DNA of 64,000 nt from Candidatus Bathyarchaeota archaeon (lineage in GTDB: Archaea; Thermoproteota; Bathyarchaeia; Bathyarchaeales; Bathycorpusculaceae): contig JAOZHV010000044.1 of the NCBI GenBank assembly GCA_026014725.1, forward strand, positions 154,272-218,271, written 5' to 3'. Position numbers and translations under genes: made by a program. Shown here one piece after another: positions 19,940 to 31,116 of the stretch; the stretch's first letter is position 1; each line of letters begins with the position of its first letter. Below the pieces are notes generated by a model. That model made no database searches, was not told the DNA's origin, and worked only from the letters and a program-made list of their open reading frames with translations.

Positions 19940-21034
19940 CTAAAGCTTTTCCAACTCGCTTCCAATCTTCTCTTTTATCCCGCTGAGATTCAGTGTGTCC
20001 TTTAAGTGGTTGATGGTTTTAACAGGCGTAGGGTCAACGCCATGCAGCACTGCCGAGTACACGCTTGTAAAATCGCCTATGAGTATGGTCGAGAGCATCC
20101 TTGCCAACGCGCTCTTGCCTTGCGCTTGAATCTCCAACATCCTCAAGCCTTCTTGCTTTAGGATTTGTTTGGTTGTTTCGATTCGACTTTTGATTTCCAC
20201 AGGCTCATCTTGGTCGCGGATAAAGATAACTGAGAAGCACTTGCCCAATTCACCGATGCCCTCCCAACCGACAATCTCATTGTGGTTTAGTTCGGAGAAA
20301 ACCTCCGCCTTTGCAGGCAATTTACTGTTCTCGTTAAACTGTTGCTTAAATCGCTTGGCAACGCCACGGTAAAACCCAAACCCGTAAGTCACAGGAGCAG
20401 TCTTACCAATGTTTACGGCTAGCGTTTTGGCAAAGTTATCCTTAACTTCAGGAGAGTTTTCCCTGCTAATTTTTTCTAAAAGCACCAACGCTTCGTTGAG
20501 TTCTTCAGAAACGCCTGAAACCAAACCAGCCTTTTCCATAAAAAACAGCAAAGGAACAAACAAATACGGCAACGCTGCACGCGGAGGCATGCCACCCACA
20601 ACACGGACAAAGGGAACATGAAGTTTTTCAGCATACTTTAGGAGTATACCGCCACTGCTTATACAAAAAACCATGCACTTGCGCCGTAAAGCATCAAGAA
20701 AAGCGCTAAGCGATTCTTCAGTGTCTCCTGAGTAGCTCATGATTACTACGAGGGTGTTTTTGCCTGCATAGTTGGGCAGTTCATATCCGCGGTTAACCTC
20801 AATTGGGACATCTGTTTTGTTTCTTGCCCAGTCTTTTAGGAGGTCTCCACTGATGCCTGAACCTCCCATCCCAGTGATGATGGTGTTGTCAGGCTTAGGA
20901 TAGTTAACGGTGATTTTTTTGGCTATTTCGGCGGCTTCGCGGTAGTGCTTGGCAGAATTAACGCAGAAATTTATCATTCCACTCTTGTCAACCGCTCTAA
21001 TCTTTTCGATGTTGTTTAAAATGGCTGTTGCCAC
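19940..21034 (-). CDS. Bifunctional phosphoglucose/phosphomannose isomerase
   Basis: 364 residues of the archaeal PGI/PMI family: a double SIS fold with ITGMGGSGISGDLLKDW, VIMSYSGDTEESLSAF and FSELNHNEIVGWEG. It interconverts glucose-6-P, fructose-6-P and mannose-6-P. Divergent from the SPOUT methylase gene with about 90 nt between the starts and TATA-like elements in both directions (minus GATATAAAAC near 21062-21071; plus ACTTTTAAG near 21079). Confidence 0.92.
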   Translation of the reverse strand: MATAILNNIEKIRAVDKSGMINFCVNSAKHYREAAEIAKKITVNYPKPDNTIITGMGGSGISGDLLKDWARNKTDVPIEVNRGYELPNYAGKNTLVVIMSYSGDTEESLSAFLDALRRKCMVFCISSGGILLKYAEKLHVPFVRVVGGMPPRAALPYLFVPLLFFMEKAGLVSGVSEELNEALVLLEKISRENSPEVKDNFAKTLAVNIGKTAPVTYGFGFYRGVAKRFKQQFNENSKLPAKAEVFSELNHNEIVGWEGIGELGKCFSVIFIRDQDEPVEIKSRIETTKQILKQEGLRMLEIQAQGKSALARMLSTILIGDFTSVYSAVLHGVDPTPVKTINHLKDTLNLSGIKEKIGSELEKL

Positions 21035-21124
21035 TTTTTAGTTCCTCCGATAACCCGCAGTTTTATATCTCATCCCCCACTTTTAAGTTCAACGCAGACA
21101 AGGTAACGTTAAGAGGCAAGCGTC

Positions 21125-21976
21125 ATGAATAAAAAGAAGCTTTCAATTGCCATCCCTGCATCTGTGATATCTGATACGCCCCACTTGCGGGAAAAAACAT
21201 CCAAAATCGGGTTAATTGGTCGCTCAGCGGCGATTTTCAGAGTTGGTGAAATCATAATTTACCCCGACAACCCTAAAGCTGACCAGCGCAAAGACATGAG
21301 CTTTATCGCATTGCTACTGAATTATCTTGAGACGCCTCAGTACCTTCGCAAGAACCTCTTTAAAATTGAGCCAGACCTACAGTACGCTGGAATCCTGCCG
21401 CCGTTACGCACGCCCCATCATCCCTTGAGCGGTAAAACTAAACATCTCAAAGTTGGTGAGTACCGTGAAGGCATAGTCTTGTCGGAAACTAAAGAGGGTT
21501 TGCTTGTAGAGATTGGCGTACAGCAACCTGCACTTTTAAGGCAGAAACAGTTTGGCATTGGCGAACGCTTAACTTTACAGGTGATCAACATCGGCGAGAA
21601 AGTGGAGGTTCAGGTGGTGAATCGTGAAGAAGTCCCCGTCTACTGGGGCTACAGGGTTAAAATTGAGAGGAGACCGATTGGGCAAATCGTCAAAGACGAC
21701 AGCTTCGATTTGAAAATTGCCACCGCCAGAGTCGGCGATAACTTCCCTGATGTGGCTGACAAAATTAGAGAGAAATGGCTTGGCAGTCAGAGTGTTTTAG
21801 TGGCGTTTGGCGCTCCCTCTTGTGGTTTGCATGAAATTGTGGGGGCTGACGGCGAAGAACTGGTCACCATTTTTGATTTCGTAGTCAATACCATACCTGA
21901 TCAGGGAACTGCTACAGTTCGAACAGAAGAAGCGCTTTTGGCAACTTTGGCGGTTTTTAACGTAAGCTTTTCATGA
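21125..21976 (+). CDS. SPOUT-fold RNA methyltransferase with OB insert (DUF171/MTH1 type)
   Basis: 283 residues. N-terminal KLSIAIPASVISDTPHLREKT and IGLIGRSAAIFRV start the alpha/beta-knot fold; the middle (VGEYREGIVLSETKEGLLVEIG) is an OB-like insert; FGAPSCGLHEI and VNTIPDQGTATVRTEEALLATLA build the SAM-binding knot. The family methylates RNA, probably rRNA; the specific target is not known from sequence. Confidence 0.88.
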   Translation: MNKKKLSIAIPASVISDTPHLREKTSKIGLIGRSAAIFRVGEIIIYPDNPKADQRKDMSFIALLLNYLETPQYLRKNLFKIEPDLQYAGILPPLRTPHHPLSGKTKHLKVGEYREGIVLSETKEGLLVEIGVQQPALLRQKQFGIGERLTLQVINIGEKVEVQVVNREEVPVYWGYRVKIERRPIGQIVKDDSFDLKIATARVGDNFPDVADKIREKWLGSQSVLVAFGAPSCGLHEIVGADGEELVTIFDFVVNTIPDQGTATVRTEEALLATLAVFNVSFS

Positions 21977-22018
21977 GCTTTTCTGCTTGTTTTCAGGGAG
22001 TTTTTGGTAAAGAAATAA

Positions 22019-23158
22019 ATGTTTCATTTGGGTATTGTGCTGGACATGCCGACTCTTGATCTCGCTATGCCAGCTGCGTTGCTGTTTGTGGTACTAGTTG
22101 CCATGTTCTTAAACAAGCGAGCGGAAGGCAAACTGATGGCGACGGTTGAGCAGAAAGAGTTCAAAACACGAGACGTAGTGCTCCTTATAGTATTTATCGC
22201 CATTGTAATTTCAGTCATAGCTTACACTACAATAATCAGCCCCGGAGAAGTCTTCTCCAACGTGCTTATGGTGATTTTCCTCTCCTCATACGCCACGCTC
22301 CTATTCACTTTTTCATTCGTGTTCTCAAACCTGCGAAAGCGACGTGCACAGTTGCTGTCGGTCGGCTTCGGTATAGCAAGCTTAATTGCTGGGTCAGTAA
22401 GCCTCATTGGTTCATTCACTGACGCATACACTATCATTAGGGCAGGCGCGTTCTTTGTTCTAGCAGTAGGCTGTTTTGCTGTTGTTGTTTTTGAGCAGAA
22501 AAAAGCCGTTTTTAAAGAGCGATGGTACATTGCTGCCCAACCGCCTGCATTGTTCGTGCTCCTATTCGTATTCTTTAACGTTGTCTACGGTGGAACTGCC
22601 TCTGTTTGGTTCCCTGTTTTGATGGGCATCTTTGGGTTCACATTCGCAATCCTAATTATCATGTATCTTTCATCAATGTTTAATTGGAAAACAGTCGGCA
22701 TTTTTGCTGTGCTCTTAACAATGCTTGATATTATACTGGTTTTCACTGGGCCAATGGTTGCGGCAGCCCAAACTTTCACAGGGCTTGGTTTGCCAGTTCT
22801 GATTTACTTGCCAAACATCCCTATTCTTTTAACGCAAACAGGCGCTATCGCTTTCAGAGGGCTTGGGCTTGGCGACTTCTTCTTTGCAGGAATACTGGCT
22901 GTTCAAACATACAAAAAGTTCGGCAAAAAAGCAGGTATCATCTCCGCTGTGGCGATGACTGTTGCTTTTGGAATTTGGGAAGCGTACCTGCCTGAGATAA
23001 CAGCGTTCTTCAAGATTGGCGGGTTCCCAGCAACCGTGTGCATAATCAGTGGTTGGTTGCCCGTCGCGGCATATTACTTGCTAACGAACAGAAGACAGAT
23101 TCCGCGACTCAGTGAGCAAATGACAATACAACCTGATAATTCAGCCTTGATTGAATAA
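22019..23158 (+). CDS. Presenilin/signal-peptide-peptidase-like intramembrane aspartyl protease
   Basis: 379 residues with about nine to ten membrane helices. The two candidate catalytic aspartates are in TMLDIILVF (D237) and GLGLGDFFF (D286, the GxGD motif), with LPVLIYLPN between them as in archaeal presenilin homologues. The third family motif, PAL, appears as PAT (P337-A338-T339) in GGFPATVCIISGW. The normal helix-1 (Y/W)D is LD here. The helix order matches the A22/archaeal SPP family, but the substitutions make activity uncertain. Substrates would be membrane stubs such as cleaved signal peptides. Confidence 0.7.
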   Translation: MFHLGIVLDMPTLDLAMPAALLFVVLVAMFLNKRAEGKLMATVEQKEFKTRDVVLLIVFIAIVISVIAYTTIISPGEVFSNVLMVIFLSSYATLLFTFSFVFSNLRKRRAQLLSVGFGIASLIAGSVSLIGSFTDAYTIIRAGAFFVLAVGCFAVVVFEQKKAVFKERWYIAAQPPALFVLLFVFFNVVYGGTASVWFPVLMGIFGFTFAILIIMYLSSMFNWKTVGIFAVLLTMLDIILVFTGPMVAAAQTFTGLGLPVLIYLPNIPILLTQTGAIAFRGLGLGDFFFAGILAVQTYKKFGKKAGIISAVAMTVAFGIWEAYLPEITAFFKIGGFPATVCIISGWLPVAAYYLLTNRRQIPRLSEQMTIQPDNSALIE

Positions 23159-23207
23159 GTTAAAAGATTTTTTGGGAAAAATGGTTAAAAATAGAGAGAG
23201 GCTTATT

Positions 23208-23534
23208 TTACCCGAATAGGGCGCCTAATCCTTCTAGCGCTGCTTCTTCTTTGGCTTTTTCATCTTCAGCTTTCTTCTTCTTGTCTTCTGCTGGTGCTGC
23301 TGGCTTTGCTTCTGCACCTGCTGCTGGTGCTGCTGCTACTGGAGCGGCTGCCATCATGGTTGGCGCGGCTTTGATTGCCTCATCAATGTTTACTTCGCTA
23401 AGTGAAGCTACGAGTGCTTTAACTTGAACTGCGTCAACATTGATTCCTGCTGCTTTGAGAACGTTTGTTACGGAATCTTCGTTAATTTCTTTTCCTGCCT
23501 TGTGAAGGAGCATTGCTGCGTAAATGTTTTCCAT
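23208..23534 (-). CDS. rpl12: Ribosomal protein P1 (archaeal L12, stalk)
   Basis: 108 residues: MENIYAAMLLHKAGKEINED dimerisation domain, an Ala/Pro hinge (AAPVAAAPAAGAEAKP), a Lys/Glu-charged linker and the conserved GLGALFG tail that binds elongation factors. Stand-alone here, not next to rplJ/P0 or rplA. Confidence 0.96.
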   Translation of the reverse strand: MENIYAAMLLHKAGKEINEDSVTNVLKAAGINVDAVQVKALVASLSEVNIDEAIKAAPTMMAAAPVAAAPAAGAEAKPAAPAEDKKKKAEDEKAKEEAALEGLGALFG

Positions 23535-23649
23535 ACCTTTTCACCTCTTCATCCGACTATTTTAACCTTTTTCAGTTCGTCAGACCGCCTTTCTGTTAAA
23601 AGCTGGTCGTTACCTGAATTGGCGATTTTTCGCCGTTATTGCCGTTTAG

Positions 23650-24312
23650 ATGAATACCCAATTACTTAAGAACCTTTCGTCACGGGTTCTGGTCTTATCG
23701 TACACTTTCAATTCCCGTTTCTTGGGATTTTCCCTTGCACCAAGTGGTTTTGAAGCTGGCGATCTCATTTACACAACAGACGGCGTTGAGCATCTTGGAT
23801 ATTATAGCACTTACTTAAAGAATTCAATGGCTTGGATTAAAAGTAACACGCCTGAAAATGCTGTTTTTTTGAATTGGTGGGATTATGGTCATTTGATAGT
23901 AGCTGTTGGAGAAAGAGAGTCAATGAGCAAGAATCCATCGGAGCAAGCTCTTTTTAGCGTAGTTGGTTCTCCAAACTTGGAAGTTGATCCACATGAAAGA
24001 ATTGCTGATGTAGCAACCACTCTAACGACAACGGATGAAAGCACAACAAAGAGCATCATGCAAAAGTATTCCGCTGATTACCTAATTGTTACGTTTGAGG
24101 ATGTGAGTAGTAAAAGTCATCGGATATTCCACTTCGCAGGATTAAATTCGACTGACCATGCATCAGATTTTTGGTATGCTGGTGATGATAAATTCTCAAA
24201 TCCAGCATATACAGACTTAGGGAAACAAACAATGATCTATAGACTGTACACAAACTCTAACCTCACCGATTTCACACAAGTCTATTCAGACCAATACATA
24301 AAAAAACTTTAA
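23650..24312 (+). pseudogene. STT3/AglB oligosaccharyltransferase, C-terminal stump
   Basis: The frame contains the STT3 catalytic signature WWDYG in FLNWWDYGHLI, preceded by GVEHLGYYSTYLKNSMAWIKSNTP, and continues to a natural stop. A real STT3 has an N-terminal membrane domain of 400 or more residues with about 13 helices; none is present. The homology appears to begin right after a CRISPR-repeat-like 38-mer (23704-23741), which is read through in the first 30 codons. I interpret this as a gene cut by recombination or insertion. Expression is unlikely to give an active transferase. Confidence 0.7.
23667..23741 (-). repeat. Solitary CRISPR-repeat-like unit, copy 1 (permuted)
   Basis: 23704-23741 is a 38-mer identical to 28111-28148. 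Read on the minus strand it contains ATCCCAAGAAACGGGAATTGAAAG, with an inner palindrome (ATCCC/GGGAAT) and the ATTGAAAG 3' end typical of archaeal CRISPR repeats. The 16-mer TAAGAACCTTTCGTCA at 23667-23682 lies 21 nt before it, whereas in copy 2 the same 16-mer directly follows the 38-mer. No cas genes or regular array are nearby. Confidence 0.5.
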
Positions 24313-24482
24313 ACCAAATGACTAAAAATGGGCAGGATGTACAATGGCTATTCCTCTATTTTAAATCTGCAAATACTCTAAACTTCAAAAAAGAGAACCA
24401 TAGTAGAGTGGTAGTTAAACGGGGAAGCTAAGCCTTAATTATTTTTCCACAAGACTTCTTAATGCTACTATAGAGGTTTTTT

Positions 24483-24863
24483 ATGGGCTTTTCTGCGGTC
24501 AAGGATGAAGTAACTAAGCTAATCAATGGAGAGAGCAAAATTAACGCGGAAGATTGTTGCTGACAAAAAGGTTTCGAGGCGAGGAGTCGAGCTCTACAAG
24601 CAAAAATCGTCAACGATGAAAAAATTAAACCCCTTATAGTGGTTAAGCATCCAAGAAAAGATTTGTATGCTGTACTGGATGGTCATCGCAGATTTTATGC
24701 TTTTCTTGAAATGGGAAAAAAGGAAATTGATTGTTCTTTGGCTGGTGATTACTCAATTGTCATTTTCTATCTGACAGAGCACGGCTATTTTCAACCGAGC
24801 ACTGAAGTTACTGAGTGCATAAGACAACCAGCGATAAGACTGCACAAACCAAAGCCCTTTTAG
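24483..24863 (+). pseudogene. Frameshifted ParB-like nuclease/partition domain
   Basis: An ATG at 24483 opens MGFSAVKDEVTKLINGES and ends at a TGA; a second frame gives VSRRGVELYKQK, and a one-base shift then continues IVNDEKIKPLIVVKHPRKD and YAVLDGHRRFYAFLEMGKKE. Joined, these read as one ParB-like domain with its LDGHRR signature. At least two frame disruptions make it a pseudogene, unless the assembly has base errors. The intact last frame alone spans 24639-24863. Confidence 0.6.
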
Positions 24864-24872
24864 TGATTCAAC

Positions 24873-25076
24873 GTGCAAGAGATATGCCTTTTGTCATCTG
24901 CAGGGTATCATGATGATGTGTTCTGGGCTACTACACTAGCTGTTTATGCTACTATGGAGATGGCACCCGAACCATTTTTGGCTGTTGTTCCTGATGACGA
25001 GCCGTTAGCATTCAAATATATCTGGGAAGCAAAAGACAGTAATCTAACCATAAGAAAACGTTTAATTGAATTTTAA
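24873..25076 (+). pseudogene. Gene fragment, possibly terminase/RNase-H-like tail
   Basis: A 67-codon frame from GTG encodes YHDDVFWATTLAVYATMEMA followed by PEPFLAVVPDD. The HDD...ALAVYA pattern recalls the end of a terminase-type RNase-H nuclease domain, but this is a loose resemblance. Being short and next to two other broken genes, it is best read as a remnant of an inserted element. Confidence 0.35.
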
Positions 25077-25248
25077 CACATTTACTTTAAACAGGTAAAC
25101 GGTACTTAGCTAGCATAGATTGTTTTGGGCTGAACGGAGTAGAGGATTATAACGAATACGTTCACTTGGATGATGAGTTATCGGTTGGATGTCTTCTAAG
25201 GCCAATTTGAGATTCATGTAAAGCTATAGAAAATGAATAATTCGAGGC

Positions 25249-25950
25249 TTAATTTGTTAAACCGCACGTCGGACTCTTGCGCACTAATTTTTGTTGTTGT
25301 CTTCGCAAGAACAAAGCTATAGTTATAATAGTAAAAACTATGAAAGTAACTGCTATTATGATAACCCCTACTGGAATTGGGTCCATCGGAGAAAAGGGTG
25401 TGGGTGAGGATGTCAATGGGATAGTTTGTTCTTCGACTGAAAATACATAGGGATAGGTTGTAATATTGAAATAAAAGTGTTCAGGAGGAAAGTTATTATG
25501 ATGGTAAAGGCTTGCATTTATTACAATATCATGGTATCCAGGCTTCAGGTGAGAAATATCCACTGTATATGCAAAAGACGGATTGATTAAGAAATTGTCT
25601 TTTGAACCCACAATGGAGTCGCTTGCAGATGGCGTAGGTAGAAGTCTAACAAAAGGACCGTTATCTATACTATAAGCATAATATCCGTTTAAAGGAATCG
25701 GCAAAAGAAACTTTGGGTATTGCATCCATTTTATGCTGAAATTAAGAGGCATTATTTTGCTGTAGACCGTTTGATTGTTTGGGCTATTCATTGTTAGATT
25801 GAAGGAACAGTAGTTAACAGGAGAATTTGCTCCATAATATCCTCGGCCAAAAGAACTTGTAATCTGTGCATTAGTTATTGGTAAATGCTGTGTCATGGTT
25901 AATAGGATGACTATAAGCACTAATGTTAATCCTTTGCCTAAAGGACTCAT
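25249..25950 (-). CDS. Secreted protein with C-terminal membrane anchor
   Basis: Signal peptide (LTLVLIVILLTMTQHLPITNAQ), a beta-rich ectodomain with many N-x-S/T sequons and Ig/CARDB-like phrasing (FAYTVDISHLKPGYHDIVI), a Thr/Ser/Pro stem and a C-terminal helix (VGVIIIAVTFIVFTIITIALFL) ending in RRQQQK. Unknown function; surface glycoprotein inferred. Same strand as the next two secreted-protein genes. Confidence 0.7.
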   Translation of the reverse strand: MSPLGKGLTLVLIVILLTMTQHLPITNAQITSSFGRGYYGANSPVNYCSFNLTMNSPNNQTVYSKIMPLNFSIKWMQYPKFLLPIPLNGYYAYSIDNGPFVRLLPTPSASDSIVGSKDNFLINPSFAYTVDISHLKPGYHDIVINASLYHHNNFPPEHFYFNITTYPYVFSVEEQTIPLTSSPTPFSPMDPIPVGVIIIAVTFIVFTIITIALFLRRQQQKLVRKSPTCGLTN

Positions 25951-26052
25951 GTATTAAATATTAATTTATTTGATGAGATAAGCTTTTTGCAATTAGTGCT
26001 TTCTTTAGTTTATTTCTCGAAATAAAAAAGGGGGATTGTTTCTTCGAATGCT

Positions 26053-26892
26053 TTATCGTATGGGATGAAATAGATCAACTTCCGCTAACTGTTCCGCTGG
26101 AAGTATTTTATTGTATATAAAGCCGTCTTCATACTTATTCAGTTGAGCCTCAGCTAATGGTTTGTCTGTTATTGATTCTTTGTATACTGTGATCGAGCCA
26201 TTTGACATCGTTAAGTATCCAAGCCTATAGATAGTAACTGAGATTGAGTTTGGTGCACCTGCGCTCAATAAGCTGGTATCAATATATTTGTTAGGGCGAT
26301 ACCCTGTGTAAATACCCACAGAACCTATTTTTTTGCTTAAGCGGCAATCATTGTCTGTCCAATTATAGCTGAAGGTACCACCACTGCTTCGATAGCGATT
26401 CTTATCTATTATTTCGTTTGAATATTGAACCAAAGTCATTTGTTGATCTAAGGTAAATGAAGTATAATTGATTCCAGCACTCCATGCATGATACTCAGTT
26501 ATTCCTGTGTCAGTGGCAACTTGTATACCGTACACCTCAATAACGGCGTCGCAAGACTTAATTTGGATAGAGGGAGCACGTGTGAAGTTCAAGTAAACTG
26601 CCGATGGGTATTTACTGGCGTGAATCATTGTGACATTGTGTTTAGGATCATAATAAGAGATTTTATCGGATGGTGGCGGACCGACATAAGCATATGCTAT
26701 ACCAACCTGGAACTGAGATTCCGGTCCAGCTGACTTTTTGGCGACGGATGTAACCACAGTGGCTATTGGTAGTCCTGATTGAGAAGTGCTATTTGTGTCT
26801 GGAAGCTGGGTAGAAGCAGATAACATGGAAAGCATCGGTATAAACAAGATTGTAATAACTGTAGCACAAAGTATCGCATAGGCTTTTTTTAT
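26053..26892 (-). CDS. Secreted protein of unknown function (start uncertain)
   Basis: About 279 residues if the frame starts at the codon at 26890-26892. From there the protein begins K-K-A-Y-A-I-L-C-A-T-V-I-T-I-L, an ideal signal peptide, but the first codon is ATA, not ATG; the first standard alternative is the TTG at 26847, which loses the basic end of the signal. A stop lies two codons upstream of the ATA. The mature part (IAYAYVGPPPSDKISYYDP, SIQIKSCDAVIEVYGIQV) is beta-rich with no recognised motif. Possibly ATA initiation, a mutated start or a base error. Confidence 0.55.
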   Translation of the reverse strand: MKKAYAILCATVITILFIPMLSMLSASTQLPDTNSTSQSGLPIATVVTSVAKKSAGPESQFQVGIAYAYVGPPPSDKISYYDPKHNVTMIHASKYPSAVYLNFTRAPSIQIKSCDAVIEVYGIQVATDTGITEYHAWSAGINYTSFTLDQQMTLVQYSNEIIDKNRYRSSGGTFSYNWTDNDCRLSKKIGSVGIYTGYRPNKYIDTSLLSAGAPNSISVTIYRLGYLTMSNGSITVYKESITDKPLAEAQLNKYEDGFIYNKILPAEQLAEVDLFHPIR

Positions 26893-26931
26893 TTTCTATT
26901 CTATGCTCTGTCAAACTTTCACATCTCCCTG

Positions 26932-27549
26932 TTACCAGTGTGCACTTAAGTAGCCCCAACCATAACCGTAAGGATCATATGGCGGATTCTGAGTAAATGC
27001 TTGTACATACCAATTCTCCCACGGGTTGTCATTGGCATAGAAACATTGTGCTGTGAGTCCTTCAACAGAATAGCAGGGATCCATAGAGGCTGCTACTTCA
27101 TAGTAATGATAATAACAGGAATAAGGTGGTGGTGGGTTCCATGGTGGTGGACCCCAATCTTGCGCACAGTAGTAATAGTAATAATGGTGGTCGTTGCCAT
27201 TAACGCAGGGGTCAATGATCAAGACATTGTACATATCGAGCTCTATACCGCATTCACCTTCGAAACACCATCGTGCCCAGTCAAACATGGGATTTTGTGG
27301 ATATCCAACAAGACAGTATCTTGCGTCTACGCCAAGTCCTGCCTCGCTGTCTTCTGGATCAGCTTCCCAAATAAGATGGTTGCATTCGCAGTACCAGGGA
27401 TTATAGCCTAGGCTTATCGATTCATTATATCCAAGATCTTCTCCATCAATATGATGTTGTTGTGCAAGTACCGTTTGTAGGTTTGGCATCGTTAAGATAA
27501 CCGTTACCATTATAGCAATAAGAAGGCTGGCTATCGATTGTTTCATCAT
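26932..27549 (-). CDS. Secreted Tyr/Cys/Pro-rich protein
   Basis: I start it at the ATG at 27549 (second ATG three nt later), preceded by a GAGGAAG ribosome site; the longer frame from 27669 has a non-signal N-terminus. Signal peptide MMKQSIASLLIAIMVTVILT, cleavage near VLAQ. The mature chain of about 175 residues has at least a dozen cysteines and aromatic runs (HHYYYYYC, PPPYSCYYHYYEV), and ends in YGYGWGYLSAHW. Disulfide-rich extracellular protein; no family recognised. Confidence 0.65.
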   Translation of the reverse strand: MMKQSIASLLIAIMVTVILTMPNLQTVLAQQHHIDGEDLGYNESISLGYNPWYCECNHLIWEADPEDSEAGLGVDARYCLVGYPQNPMFDWARWCFEGECGIELDMYNVLIIDPCVNGNDHHYYYYYCAQDWGPPPWNPPPPYSCYYHYYEVAASMDPCYSVEGLTAQCFYANDNPWENWYVQAFTQNPPYDPYGYGWGYLSAHW

Positions 27550-27669
27550 TTTTCTTCCTCTAAATTGGTTTTGCTTTACCTTTTTTCTGTCCTCTTTTGG
27601 CCCTTCACTTAGGGCTAGGCGGTTACACGCCCGATATGCAATCAGCATATCAAAATACATAAGATTCAA

Positions 27670-28254
27670 CTCTTCTTTTTAATTTTTGAACATATTTATC
27701 AATAAATGGTTTCACTTTTTTCAGATGTTTAATATTTTCAGCTAAAGACACTTATCGTAAAACACGCTAAGATACCGCAATATGCACGCATTTTAAAAAT
27801 AGGGCTTACTTTAGGGTATTTCTATATCTCTTACGTAATTTTGGGTTCTTGTGAATGTCAAAGAATTTCAGGTGAAATCTTTCTTGGCTTTTGAACTTTT
27901 TTCGTGTAAGAGATCGGCGGTGGGTAGTAAGCTATTTTTAAATAGAATTATATTCTATAACAAAAAGCTACATAACGCTCTTATTCTAAACAACCAACAA
28001 ACAACCATGACAGGGCAAACTGTAAAAACGAAAAAATGCAGTGGTAAATGCCACCACAGCAGCAAATGTACGCAACATATCCAACAAAAAGATTACAAAA
28101 CAAAATGCCTACTTTCAATTCCCGTTTCTTGGGATTTTCCCTTGCACCTAAGAACCTTTCGTCAAATAATGATTGCATGTAAAATTCCAAATTACTGTTT
28201 TAATGCCTGTTTGTTTTCTTAAATTAGAAGAAAAGAGGTTGTTTGCCGTCCTAT
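27670..28254. other. AT-rich intergenic region containing a CRISPR-like repeat
   Basis: About 585 nt. A 123-codon frame (27851-28222) runs through the repeat and has no protein-like pattern, so I do not call it. Apart from the repeat at 28111-28164 I see no RNA gene or clear hairpin. Confidence 0.45.
28111..28164 (-). repeat. Solitary CRISPR-repeat-like unit, copy 2
   Basis: The same 38-mer as 23704-23741 (no mismatch seen), here followed immediately by the 16-mer TAAGAACCTTTCGTCA (28149-28164). On the minus strand this reads 16-mer, 13 nt, then an ATCCCAAG...ATTGAAAG repeat, compatible with a spacer-repeat junction of a lost CRISPR array. No further copies are visible. Confidence 0.5.
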
Positions 28255-28575
28255 TTATCGCACCATTCTCTTGTTGTCCTGTGAACTAGTTGAGCGTCTG
28301 AACGCTGTTTGCTTTTGCATTTTCTTGTATTCTTCATAGCTCCAAGTGCTGTAAGGATAGAGTTGCTTGAAACGCCGATACGGCAGTCTCATGTCAAGTT
28401 CCATTTGCTTGCTGAATTCACCTGACCTGTACCTGACGTTGCCGATAACGCTTGTATACCTTGGTCTTAGACCGAGTTTTCTTCTTTCATTGCTTAATAT
28501 TATCGCAACTGCAATCAAGGCTACTATGCCAAATAAGACGATGGTAATTGCGGGGAAGACTGTGACTGAAGCCAA
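28255..28575 (-). CDS. Small single-helix membrane protein, SPFH operon
   Basis: 106 residues with one N-terminal helix (TIVLFGIVALIAVAIILS) and a basic, tyrosine-rich cytosolic tail. TTG start preceded by GGTGAT. It follows the SPFH gene by 15 nt on the same strand and is probably its partner. No family recognised. Confidence 0.65.
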   Translation of the reverse strand: MASVTVFPAITIVLFGIVALIAVAIILSNERRKLGLRPRYTSVIGNVRYRSGEFSKQMELDMRLPYRRFKQLYPYSTWSYEEYKKMQKQTAFRRSTSSQDNKRMVR

Positions 28576-28590
28576 GCTATCACCCGCTTT

Positions 28591-29520
28591 TTACCTACTT
28601 GTCGCTGATTGGCCTTGTTTTTGCTCCGTTTTTACTGGTAGCACTGTGGCGCCTTCAAGCCCGATTACGTTTAAGATGTCTGATGTCGCTGGAACGATAA
28701 GCTTAGTTTGTTGCGAGAATGTATCGCGGACAACGTCGAGTTTTTTGTTTAGTTGCGCGTTCTCTTTAAAGTAGGCGTTTGCTGCTTCTGACACAACTTT
28801 AACTGCTTTTGCTTGTGCCTCTGCAACTAGTTCAACAGCTTTTGCTTCGCCTTCAGCGCTGAGGATTGCGGCTTGCTTTTCACCTTGTGCTTTGAGTATG
28901 GCTGCTTGTTTTTCTTGTTCGGCTGCTTCTTTTCTTCCTGTGGCTAGTAAGCGTAGTTGGCGTCTTTCCTGTTCAGCTGTTTTTTGCTTGTGCATGGCTG
29001 TTTGTATATCGTGTGGGGGGTCGATTCTTTGTAGTTCGATGCGGTTTACTTTTGTGCCCCATTTATCTGTAGCTTGATCAAGGACGCTTCTGAGTTCAAC
29101 GTTAATTTTTTCTCTGGATGTTAAACATACGTCAAGGCTCATTTCGCCGACTATGTTTCTGAGTGTTGTTTGCGCTAGTTTTACTATGGCTAGCTCGAAG
29201 TCTTCTACTTCATAGATAGCTCGTCTTGCATCAACCACTTGATAGTAGATTACAGCGTCAATTGTTACGACGACGTTGTCTTCGGTGATAATCTCTTGAG
29301 GCGGCACATCTATGACTTGCTCTCGCATGTTCACACGGAGAATTCTTTCAATGAATGGTGTTATCAAGCGTAGTCCAGGCTCAACGGTTTTTTCGTAAGC
29401 GTTGAATCTTTCCACTAAGCCCTTTTCGTATTGATTGACTTTTTTTACGGACATTGATAATAAGAGCAGTACTACTGCTGTTATGGTTACGCCAATTATT
29501 GTTATTTCTAACTCGTACAT
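28591..29520 (-). CDS. SPFH-domain (stomatin/prohibitin-like) membrane protein
   Basis: 309 residues: one N-terminal helix (ITAVVLLLLSMSV), the SPFH domain (YEKGLVERFNAYEKTVEPG, REQVIDVPPQEIITEDNV, LRNIVGEMSLDVCL) and a long Ala/Glu/Lys coiled coil (EQEKQAAILKAQGEKQAAIL). Such proteins oligomerise into membrane scaffolds with NfeD partners. Its start overlaps the upstream NfeD-like gene by 13 nt. Confidence 0.93.
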   Translation of the reverse strand: MYELEITIIGVTITAVVLLLLSMSVKKVNQYEKGLVERFNAYEKTVEPGLRLITPFIERILRVNMREQVIDVPPQEIITEDNVVVTIDAVIYYQVVDARRAIYEVEDFELAIVKLAQTTLRNIVGEMSLDVCLTSREKINVELRSVLDQATDKWGTKVNRIELQRIDPPHDIQTAMHKQKTAEQERRQLRLLATGRKEAAEQEKQAAILKAQGEKQAAILSAEGEAKAVELVAEAQAKAVKVVSEAANAYFKENAQLNKKLDVVRDTFSQQTKLIVPATSDILNVIGLEGATVLPVKTEQKQGQSATSR

Positions 29521-29972
29521 TCTTTCTCAGTTTCTCCTTCCACTATAAGGCTAACCCCTTCTACCCGAATCACCCTTACCTTAGACCCTTCTTTAATAAC
29601 TTTGCAATCATCAGGTTTAGCCATCCAAAGCTCTCCACCTATCTTGACTATGCCGCCATCGATTACGTCCACATCTGTTTTTGCTGTTGCCTCCTTGCCA
29701 ACTAAGGCATCCACGTTTGTTCTTAGCAGGCTTACGTTGAAGCGGTCAAGCAAGCCGCCGCCTCGCATTTCTTCAATGTTGTAGGTTGTGTCTTTTAGGT
29801 GGTTTAATCGTCTTATGAATTCTCCAAAGTCTTCACTGTTTAGTTCCACTTCGAGCTGGTAGCCGTTGGGTTTTCTGTTTAGCTTGTAAGTCATGCGGTA
29901 TTTCTCGGCGAACTTTGAGAGTAACTGTGCAAGTTTGAGTTCGTCTGCCTTTACGGTTAGAGTGACCTTCAA
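29508..29972 (-). CDS. NfeD-like OB-fold protein, soluble form
   Basis: 154 residues from a TTG. The C-terminal part (LVGKEATAKTDVDVIDGGIV, GGELWMAKPDD, EGSKVRVIRVEGVSLIVE) is the NfeD OB domain. The N-terminal 80 residues (VKADELKLAQLLSKFAEKY) replace the usual membrane segments and are unfamiliar. It leads the SPFH operon, the classic NfeD/SPFH pairing. Confidence 0.8.
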   Translation of the reverse strand: MKVTLTVKADELKLAQLLSKFAEKYRMTYKLNRKPNGYQLEVELNSEDFGEFIRRLNHLKDTTYNIEEMRGGGLLDRFNVSLLRTNVDALVGKEATAKTDVDVIDGGIVKIGGELWMAKPDDCKVIKEGSKVRVIRVEGVSLIVEGETEKECTS

Positions 29973-30147
29973 GGGTATCGCCTATTGTTGATATAATATT
30001 GTTAAGTATTTAACATTATCGATGCTTATTGATTAGTATTGATATATCCGCCCACTTTCACGGTTTCTATCTTAAAAACACCCAATCGCCTTAGCAAAAC
30101 TTATCTTCAAGCCCGCCTTTCACTGCGGAAAACTAAGGCATGATAAC

Positions 30148-31116
30148 ATGGGAAATATCACAGTAGCCATCTTGGGCGCTCTTGACTACGGCACCAATCT
30201 CGGTAAAAAAGGAACAGCCACAGACATAACATTCTACAACTTAAAGAGGGGCGAAGACACGGTAACTTTTCTCGAGCCTTCACGGTACCCTGAACGGTTA
30301 GCTCCATTGTTCTATGCTGTTTCATTATCAAAAAAAGCAATAATCATCGTAGATGAGCTAAACGCAATCTTAGGCGAAATCCTCGTCATGCTTCAGTGCT
30401 CAGGGATTCAAAGCGGCTACTTTGTCTTGAGAAACTACATTCCCAAAGAAAAAATCCAACCTCTCATACAGGGAACAAGCTTAGAAAAATTCGAAATCAT
30501 AAATGATGACCCCAACTTCCTAAGAGAGCAACTCTTACAGGAAGTCGCACAGCAAAAACCAACCGAACCACAGGCTGAGCAACAAGCAATTGGCACAGTT
30601 CCAGTAGACCATGCTTTCAACGTAAAAGGGGTCGGCACCGTAATACTTGGCATAGTCGTAAACGGCGTCATCCAAAAACACGCTGCCCTCACCGTTTTTC
30701 CCGCGGCAAAAACAGCGCAGGTTCGCTCCATCCAAAAGCACGACGATGAATTTGACTTTGCAAGCGAAGGCGCCCGCGTTGGACTGGCACTCAAAAACGT
30801 TTCTGTTGAAGATTTAGACCGTGGAGCTGTTTTGACAAACGATTCTTCAGTTAAGGCTGAGACGGTTCTGAAAGTTGCGGCTTCGCTGGTTAAGTATTGG
30901 CAGACGCCGATAAAGCAGGGCATGGTCGTGCATCTTGGTCACTGGGCACAATTCATAACTGCAAAAGTGGAAGCTATCGAGGATTCAGGCGACTGGAGAA
31001 AACCCACCCTAACCTTAGCATTGGATAAACCACTAGTTTATCGTCCAAACGATAAAGCAGTGCTTATGTATCTTGAGGGCGCTAAACTCCGAGTTGCTGG
31101 AACAATCCAGCTCTAG
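30148..31116 (+). CDS. EF-Tu/SelB-like protein with degenerate GTPase domain
   Basis: 322 residues. The N-terminus (ITVAILGALDYGTNLGKKGT) sits where the GTPase P-loop should be, but the GxxxxGK[ST] motif and the DxxG and NKxD motifs are missing. From about residue 150 a translation-factor beta-barrel domain is clear (VDHAFNVKGVGTVILGIVVN, RSIQKHDDEFDFASEGARVG, VEDLDRGAVLTNDS). Likely a nucleotide-free paralogue of SelB/EF1A; the role on the ribosome or tRNA is not known. Confidence 0.75.
   Translation: MGNITVAILGALDYGTNLGKKGTATDITFYNLKRGEDTVTFLEPSRYPERLAPLFYAVSLSKKAIIIVDELNAILGEILVMLQCSGIQSGYFVLRNYIPKEKIQPLIQGTSLEKFEIINDDPNFLREQLLQEVAQQKPTEPQAEQQAIGTVPVDHAFNVKGVGTVILGIVVNGVIQKHAALTVFPAAKTAQVRSIQKHDDEFDFASEGARVGLALKNVSVEDLDRGAVLTNDSSVKAETVLKVAASLVKYWQTPIKQGMVVHLGHWAQFITAKVEAIEDSGDWRKPTLTLALDKPLVYRPNDKAVLMYLEGAKLRVAGTIQL

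Follow-up and report, generated by a model that had tools for sequence, protein, structure and literature searches.

Two copies of a CRISPR (clustered regularly interspaced short palindromic repeats) repeat bracket foreign-looking DNA beside the ribosomal protein gene rpl12 in a 64,000-nucleotide window of the Candidatus Bathyarchaeota archaeon genome GCA_026014725.1 (bases 154272-218271 of contig C44, JAOZHV010000044.1; 2.56 Mb in 63 contigs, 97.4% complete). With a probability of about 0.5, we regard these two units as what remains of a mobile element (virus or plasmid) that integrated here and brought along a mini-CRISPR array with one spacer. Our confidence stays at about one half because we infer the circular form of the element, the crossover and the past function, because the viral signal is short, and because a misassembly could have produced the arrangement. 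In what follows, G000 is the source genome, other G numbers are genomes of the same family (n = 90), and L numbers are extracted loci. The features on which the argument turns are these:

23705..23741, minus strand: CRISPR repeat copy 1, 37 nt, identical at 37/37 positions to the cas-linked repeat of G020 (L068 4680-4716)
28112..28148, minus strand: CRISPR repeat copy 2, the same 37-mer as copy 1
23667..23704, minus strand: S1, a 38-nt segment after repeat copy 1, spacer-like in length, with the rpl12 promoter core making up its last 16 nt
23667..23682, minus strand: rpl12-side copy of the 16-bp direct repeat, corresponding to the conserved core of the rpl12 promoter
28149..28164, minus strand: distal copy of the 16-bp direct repeat, abutting repeat copy 2 at its first base
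23208..23534, minus strand: rpl12 (ribosomal P1/L12; PF00428, 60.7 bits), its promoter being the putative insertion site
23683..28164, no strand assigned: 4,482-bp block, putatively inserted, lying between the two 16-bp direct repeats, low in guanine-cytosine (GC) content and with gene order altered relative to relatives

Arrangement of the repeat units

A first-pass annotation of the window had reported a 38-mer that occurs twice without mismatch and a 16-mer that accompanies it on opposite sides, and both observations hold. The 38-mer (ACTTTCAATTCCCGTTTCTTGGGATTTTCCCTTGCACC) is found at 23704-23741 and 28111-28148, 100% identical and 4407 bp apart, while the 16-mer (TAAGAACCTTTCGTCA) lies before copy 1 at 23667-23682 (within 23664-23682) and after copy 2 at 28149-28164 (within 28146-28164), which makes the order permuted. 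A search with 30 nt of the 38-mer at up to 3 mismatches returned only these two matches in the window and none in 100 shuffles, ruling out a chance origin of the pair. On the minus strand both copies yield one 37-nt repeat (GGTGCAAGGGAAAATCCCAAGAAACGGGAATTGAAAG) with the 3' end ATTGAAAG. This ending had been noted before, together with an imperfect palindrome that proves weak: the RNA fold of the repeat (28111-28147) has an energy of −4.8 kcal/mol and a z of −0.43 relative to shuffles, and since this is no better than the shuffles, structure alone is no evidence for a CRISPR repeat.

In the sense of the repeat, copy 1 leads into S1, which measures exactly 38 nt and ends in the 16-mer, and the other 16-mer directly precedes copy 2. 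When the block 23683-28164 is circularised, the sequence across the closure becomes repeat, 38 nt, repeat. As it stands the locus is no ordinary CRISPR array, as regular spacing appears only with the block circularised, and neither copy has a second or partial repeat within 100 bp under rules like those of SRUFinder. The repeat-spacer-repeat unit is thus not contiguous here and is reconstructed by argument, with S1 falling within the range of 36-41 nt measured for spacers in relatives. We also considered the locus as a giant spacer caught by Cas1-Cas2 (repeat, 4.37 kb, repeat), which would account for both exact repeat ends but would exceed the known limits of spacer length.

The repeat in related genomes

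Judging by its matches in related genomes, the 37-nt core is a genuine CRISPR repeat. The core is present at up to 1 mismatch in 16 of the 90 family genomes, several of which have true arrays with a spacing of about 75 nt. The full 37-mer is identical (37/37) in the same-genus genome G020, Candidatus Bathyarchaeota archaeon BE326-BA-RLH (QYYE01000150.1, L122), where it stands at a contig end beside csa1, cas1, cas2, cas4, Cas5a and a Csa2 fragment, a type I-A set. Variants matching at 35/37 positions occur in cas1-adjoining arrays of G018 and G028; the cas1 proteins of these three genomes share 92-95% mutual identity, and the effector genes of G018 are I-B-like. The spacers of the G018 and G028 loci are 36-41 nt long (n = 27), 7 of the 27 measuring 38 nt. 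A repeat profile matched 11 of the 32 genomes of the genus subset at E ≤ 0.01; the window's own repeat was among the 15 from which it was made, and it is therefore no independent test of the window.

The CRISPR origin proposed in the first-pass annotation is therefore well founded, as an identical repeat adjoins cas genes in the same genus and close variants form true arrays. That annotation had named the lack of such an array in every relative as the outcome that would speak against it, and arrays were found. As a side observation, two same-genus genomes have repeats of this family close to rad50, no more than about 50 bp from its 3' end: a pair in G018 (L065 5019-5129, contig C52) and a single repeat in G015 (L070 6508-6545, contig C117), with the same relative orientation in both.

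The 16-mer and the rpl12 promoter

From its conservation among relatives, we read the 16-mer as native chromosome, namely the conserved core of the rpl12 promoter, and not as part of the repeat. In 20 of the 29 rpl12 loci of relatives that were compared, the alignment upstream of rpl12 extends to 23679-23682, the end of the 16-mer, and the core CTTAAGAACCTTTCGT occurs without mismatch in 13 of these loci, with one mismatch in 7 and with two in 8. The minus-strand core ACGAAAGGTTCTTAAG presumably comprises the archaeal B recognition element (BRE) and TATA element. The direct repeats at the two ends of the block hence match, over 16 bp, an intact site that relatives hold (28/29 loci at up to 2 mismatches).

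The wider setting has also changed. A homologue of the gene at 30148-31116 lies within the fetched rpl12 flank in 13 of the 29 relatives' loci, while in the source genome the 4.48-kb block and NfeD/stomatin genes separate that gene from rpl12. In G028 the homologue and a stomatin gene are neighbours on a contig other than that of rpl12, which points to more than one rearrangement of the region. More generally, gene order near rpl12 (window 19940-31116) is rearranged in the genus, and rpl12 of G028 is apart from rpl10/rpl11, which lie near the stomatin gene.

Integration through the spacer

The arrangement would be explained if a small mobile element, or its remnant, carried a leaderless and cas-less array of one repeat, a 38-nt spacer and a second repeat. 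A 4.48-kb circle of this kind could have recombined with the chromosome at the 16 bp common to the end of the spacer and the rpl12 promoter core. The circle would then have opened inside the spacer, so that one end kept repeat 2 and 16 nt of spacer while the other kept repeat 1 and the spacer in full, and the crossover would have regenerated the promoter core next to rpl12. Such a crossover would give exactly the permuted order observed. In the free element the mini-array could have fed CRISPR RNA (crRNA) to a type I-A host in competition with other elements; in the present genome, where no cognate cas genes were found, it would be inert. We see only a slight chance for the stronger proposal that the element used its CRISPR spacer as an attachment site, with promoter-core homology integrating the whole element while rebuilding the promoter of an essential ribosomal protein gene, so that mini-arrays would serve as landing sites.

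The same junctions can be approached through the repeats themselves. If a unit of 16-mer, repeat, 22 nt and 16-mer already stood at the rpl12 promoter, a circle with the 4.37-kb block and one stand-alone repeat could have crossed over at the 37-38 identical bases. That length is a better substrate for homologous recombination than 16 bp, each end of the block meets a repeat exactly, and stand-alone repeats are carried by archaeal plasmids and viruses (PMC6858448). This route, however, requires an earlier, unexplained insertion of the repeat and 22 nt with a 16-bp duplication, and it reduces the 38-nt spacer length to coincidence, so it appears unlikely to us.

Content of the block

The block looks foreign and decayed. 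At 38.4%, compared with 45.8% and 44.4% in the 10-kb flanks, its GC content falls in the lowest 1% of window stretches of equal length. The following features lie in it:

23650..24312, plus strand: open reading frame like the AglB/STT3 core (PF22627, 27.8 bits, barely above the cut-off), its real part starting at about 23742
24564..24863, plus strand: ParB N-terminal-like fragment (phrog_1033, E 3.4e-5; ParB_N below the cut-off)
24873..25076, plus strand: fragment of a viral terminase large subunit C-terminus (30-residue match)
25249..25950, minus strand: predicted secreted or membrane protein of an accessory cassette, with relatives in several family genomes; no function found
26053..26847, minus strand: accessory protein of the same cassette, 52% identical to a paralogue on contig C22 of the source genome and 59% identical to a relative in G025
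26932..27669, minus strand: Cys/Tyr-rich predicted secreted protein of the same cassette, which adjoins the homologue of 26053..26847 in G025 (contig C106), G070 (contig C89) and on C22 of the source genome

The terminase fragment is identical at 21 of 30 residues (70%) to the terminase large subunit on contig C31 of the source genome, and the terminase-bearing loci of the viral database IMG/VR that served for comparison (80 loci, of 145 confirmed) gave 80 matches, the best at 83% over 30 aa. The three-gene accessory cassette recurs in other family genomes, with a diverged pair on C22. No transposase was recognised in the block, which sets aside a transposon, and Rfam recognises just one transfer RNA (tRNA) in the whole window. 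The suggestion that the units are recombination scars around an accessory zone stands in that the zone is foreign-looking and holds a terminase fragment; it does not stand in that the junction with the chromosome is the 16-mer, not the repeat.

The AglB-like reading frame begins right at repeat copy 1, without the N-terminal membrane part present in relatives. Such a truncation exactly at a repeat is also what an assembly chimera would give, in which the 38-bp repeat joined unrelated metagenome sequences; CRISPR repeats tangle assemblies, and this genome is in 63 contigs. Yet the chromosome joins the block at a 16-bp match, which should be below the usual assembly k-mers, and the two other repeat sites of the genome resemble ordinary loci, so we assign a chimera little probability.

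Other repeats and cas genes of the source genome

A third, imperfect repeat copy lies at C44:252454, about 70 kb from the window pair, with 2 mismatches in 30. It is flanked on one side by a tRNA-Ala gene and on the other by a 35-nt 3'-end fragment of that gene, 3.9 kb from it (L004 5724-9698); the interval also contains a TrmB-like gene and a PQQ-propeller gene. A tRNA gene with a copy of its own 3'-end fragment is the usual mark of integrated DNA, so the third copy appears to belong to another integrated element. On contig C8, two degenerate repeats of the family stand 77 nt apart (C8:20410-20523; L078 8410-8523), with an HsdR gene of type I restriction about 1.4 kb away. Insertion scars hence accompany the repeat at two of the three loci of the source genome, C8 being the remaining one; the profile gave a further weak match on contig C59 (21.9 bits).

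As far as our searches reached, the source genome is without a cognate CRISPR-Cas system, in agreement with the initial description of the units as lacking cas genes. Its single cas1, on contig C53, is only 25-26% identical to the cognate cas1 proteins, and no other cas gene was recognised among the ten reading frames scanned around it. A DevR/Csa2 model had no match in the genome, but it did not detect the I-B Cas7 of G018 either. The only Cas3-like match, on contig C31, is a PLD/SNF2 helicase whose neighbours are a large methylase and an AIPR/AbiU-like gene, and it was rejected as not belonging to CRISPR. Two observations on these contigs may be added: the 15.8-kb contig of the solo cas1 (L079 6615-7730) also carries TrmB-like and PQQ-propeller genes, and a terminase large subunit gene and an ABC-ATPase gene adjoin the C31 helicase, methylase and AIPR/AbiU-like gene (L199 89-12806), a viral packaging gene next to a likely defence cluster.

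These results bear on three further explanations. The first-pass annotation had offered fragments of a lost array, that is, a former type I-A array of the chromosome reduced to two repeats by insertion of an element and by deletions. Arrays of the same repeat do persist in relatives, as does the degenerate pair near the restriction gene on C8, but no leader motif was seen in the window (one motif searched, up to 2 mismatches), no repeat appeared in the 29 relatives' rpl12 loci among the matches listed, and simple decay does not produce the permuted order. With neither leader nor cognate cas genes, a lost chromosomal array is less likely than an imported mini-array, and we hold it to be very improbable.

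Each copy could also be, or have been, an RNA anti-CRISPR (Racr) gene of an integrated element. Both copies are solitary and in or beside mobile-looking DNA, and copy 2 immediately follows one of the two rpl12 promoter cores, which recalls the solitary repeat units that often lie immediately downstream of a predicted promoter (PMC10651486). A TATA element at the 16-mer would, however, place the start of transcription within the repeat, given the usual archaeal promoter spacing, no cognate system to inhibit was found in the host, and the repeat-spacer-repeat fit would be an accident; we doubt this explanation strongly. A casposon-like insertion by the solo C53 Cas1 with a 16-bp target duplication is a weak idea, as no inverted ends are visible by eye and this Cas1 is so far from the array-linked proteins.

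Points against an integrated mini-array

Several observations weigh against the integration of a mini-array as we propose it. The 16 bp are short for homologous recombination, and their two copies could equally well be a target-site duplication. The sequence upstream of rpl12 is not conserved past the 16-mer in the 29 relatives' loci either, so the break in homology alone proves nothing. The unique 22 nt of S1, at up to 3 mismatches, matched the source genome only among the 90 genomes and had no exact match in IMG/VR, and neither a protospacer nor a second copy of S1 was found in these collections. By chance alone, a 38-nt spacer would be expected to share an exact 16-mer with a genome of this size 0.027 times, which is why a promoter-derived spacer, or an insertion that came first, deserves consideration.

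The block itself is also poor in viral features. The viral evidence consists of one 30-residue match and a weak domain match, there being no complete viral gene, and no integrase, capsid or replication gene was recognised in the block. In IMG/VR the three accessory proteins have no relative and the exact repeat is absent, and against the 80 terminase-bearing loci the repeat profile gave one weak partial match (14/37 positions, 13.6 bits). A motif scan of the viral loci found no ParB upstream of a terminase, and our searches returned no similar plasmids or phages.

Comparison with known systems

The locus is a worked case where mini-array, insertion scar and ribosomal-protein promoter coincide to the base, and if integration through spacer homology is real, mobile elements would have one more way of using CRISPR parts. 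The locus suggests that orphan CRISPR repeats in an archaeal genome need not be what is left of the cell's own immunity but can mark where mobile elements have been, and since stand-alone repeats recur in the genus, for example beside rad50 in two genomes, the question is testable across genomes. The literature searched gave no description of a mini-array split by integration at a promoter and nothing on point for repeat-mediated rearrangement.

The components are known. Viruses of Bathyarchaeia with mini-arrays are described, one with repeats identical to those of the host (PMC10848311); archaeal viruses and conjugative plasmids are reported to carry leaderless stand-alone repeats (PMC6858448); in bacteria, RNA anti-CRISPRs can consist of single repeat units (PMC10651486); and a 2024 review treats mini-arrays and stand-alone repeats as well as anti-CRISPR repeat units (PMC11656645).

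The virus-borne mini-arrays of Chiyouvirus and Fuxivirus (PMC10848311) and of SPV1/SPV2 of Saccharolobus (PMC6858448) resemble the window pair in having few repeats, a repeat identical to one in the host group's cellular arrays, a mobile context and mostly no cognate cas genes beside them. In contrast, the window array has one spacer, is leaderless, appears to have been split and permuted by integration, and belongs to a decayed 4.5-kb block without virion genes except the terminase fragment; SPV1/SPV2 arrays are described with leaders and Chiyouvirus arrays with four repeats, and the window pair has neither. A spacer matching a related element would be expected of such arrays, whereas S1 is unmatched beyond its own locus in the collections searched.

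Stand-alone repeats and solitary repeat units (PMC6858448; Racr, PMC10651486) are alike in being leaderless and lone, in mobile DNA and of host-type sequence, but the window has two identical copies with flanks that fit one repeat-spacer-repeat, and its host has no cognate system that we could find. The type I-A locus of BE326-BA-RLH has the identical 37-nt repeat beside csa1-cas1-cas2-cas4 with a leader-like sequence upstream, whereas the window has neither cas genes nor a leader. The locus thus belongs to a known kind, that of element-borne mini-arrays and stand-alone repeats, with an unusual scar.

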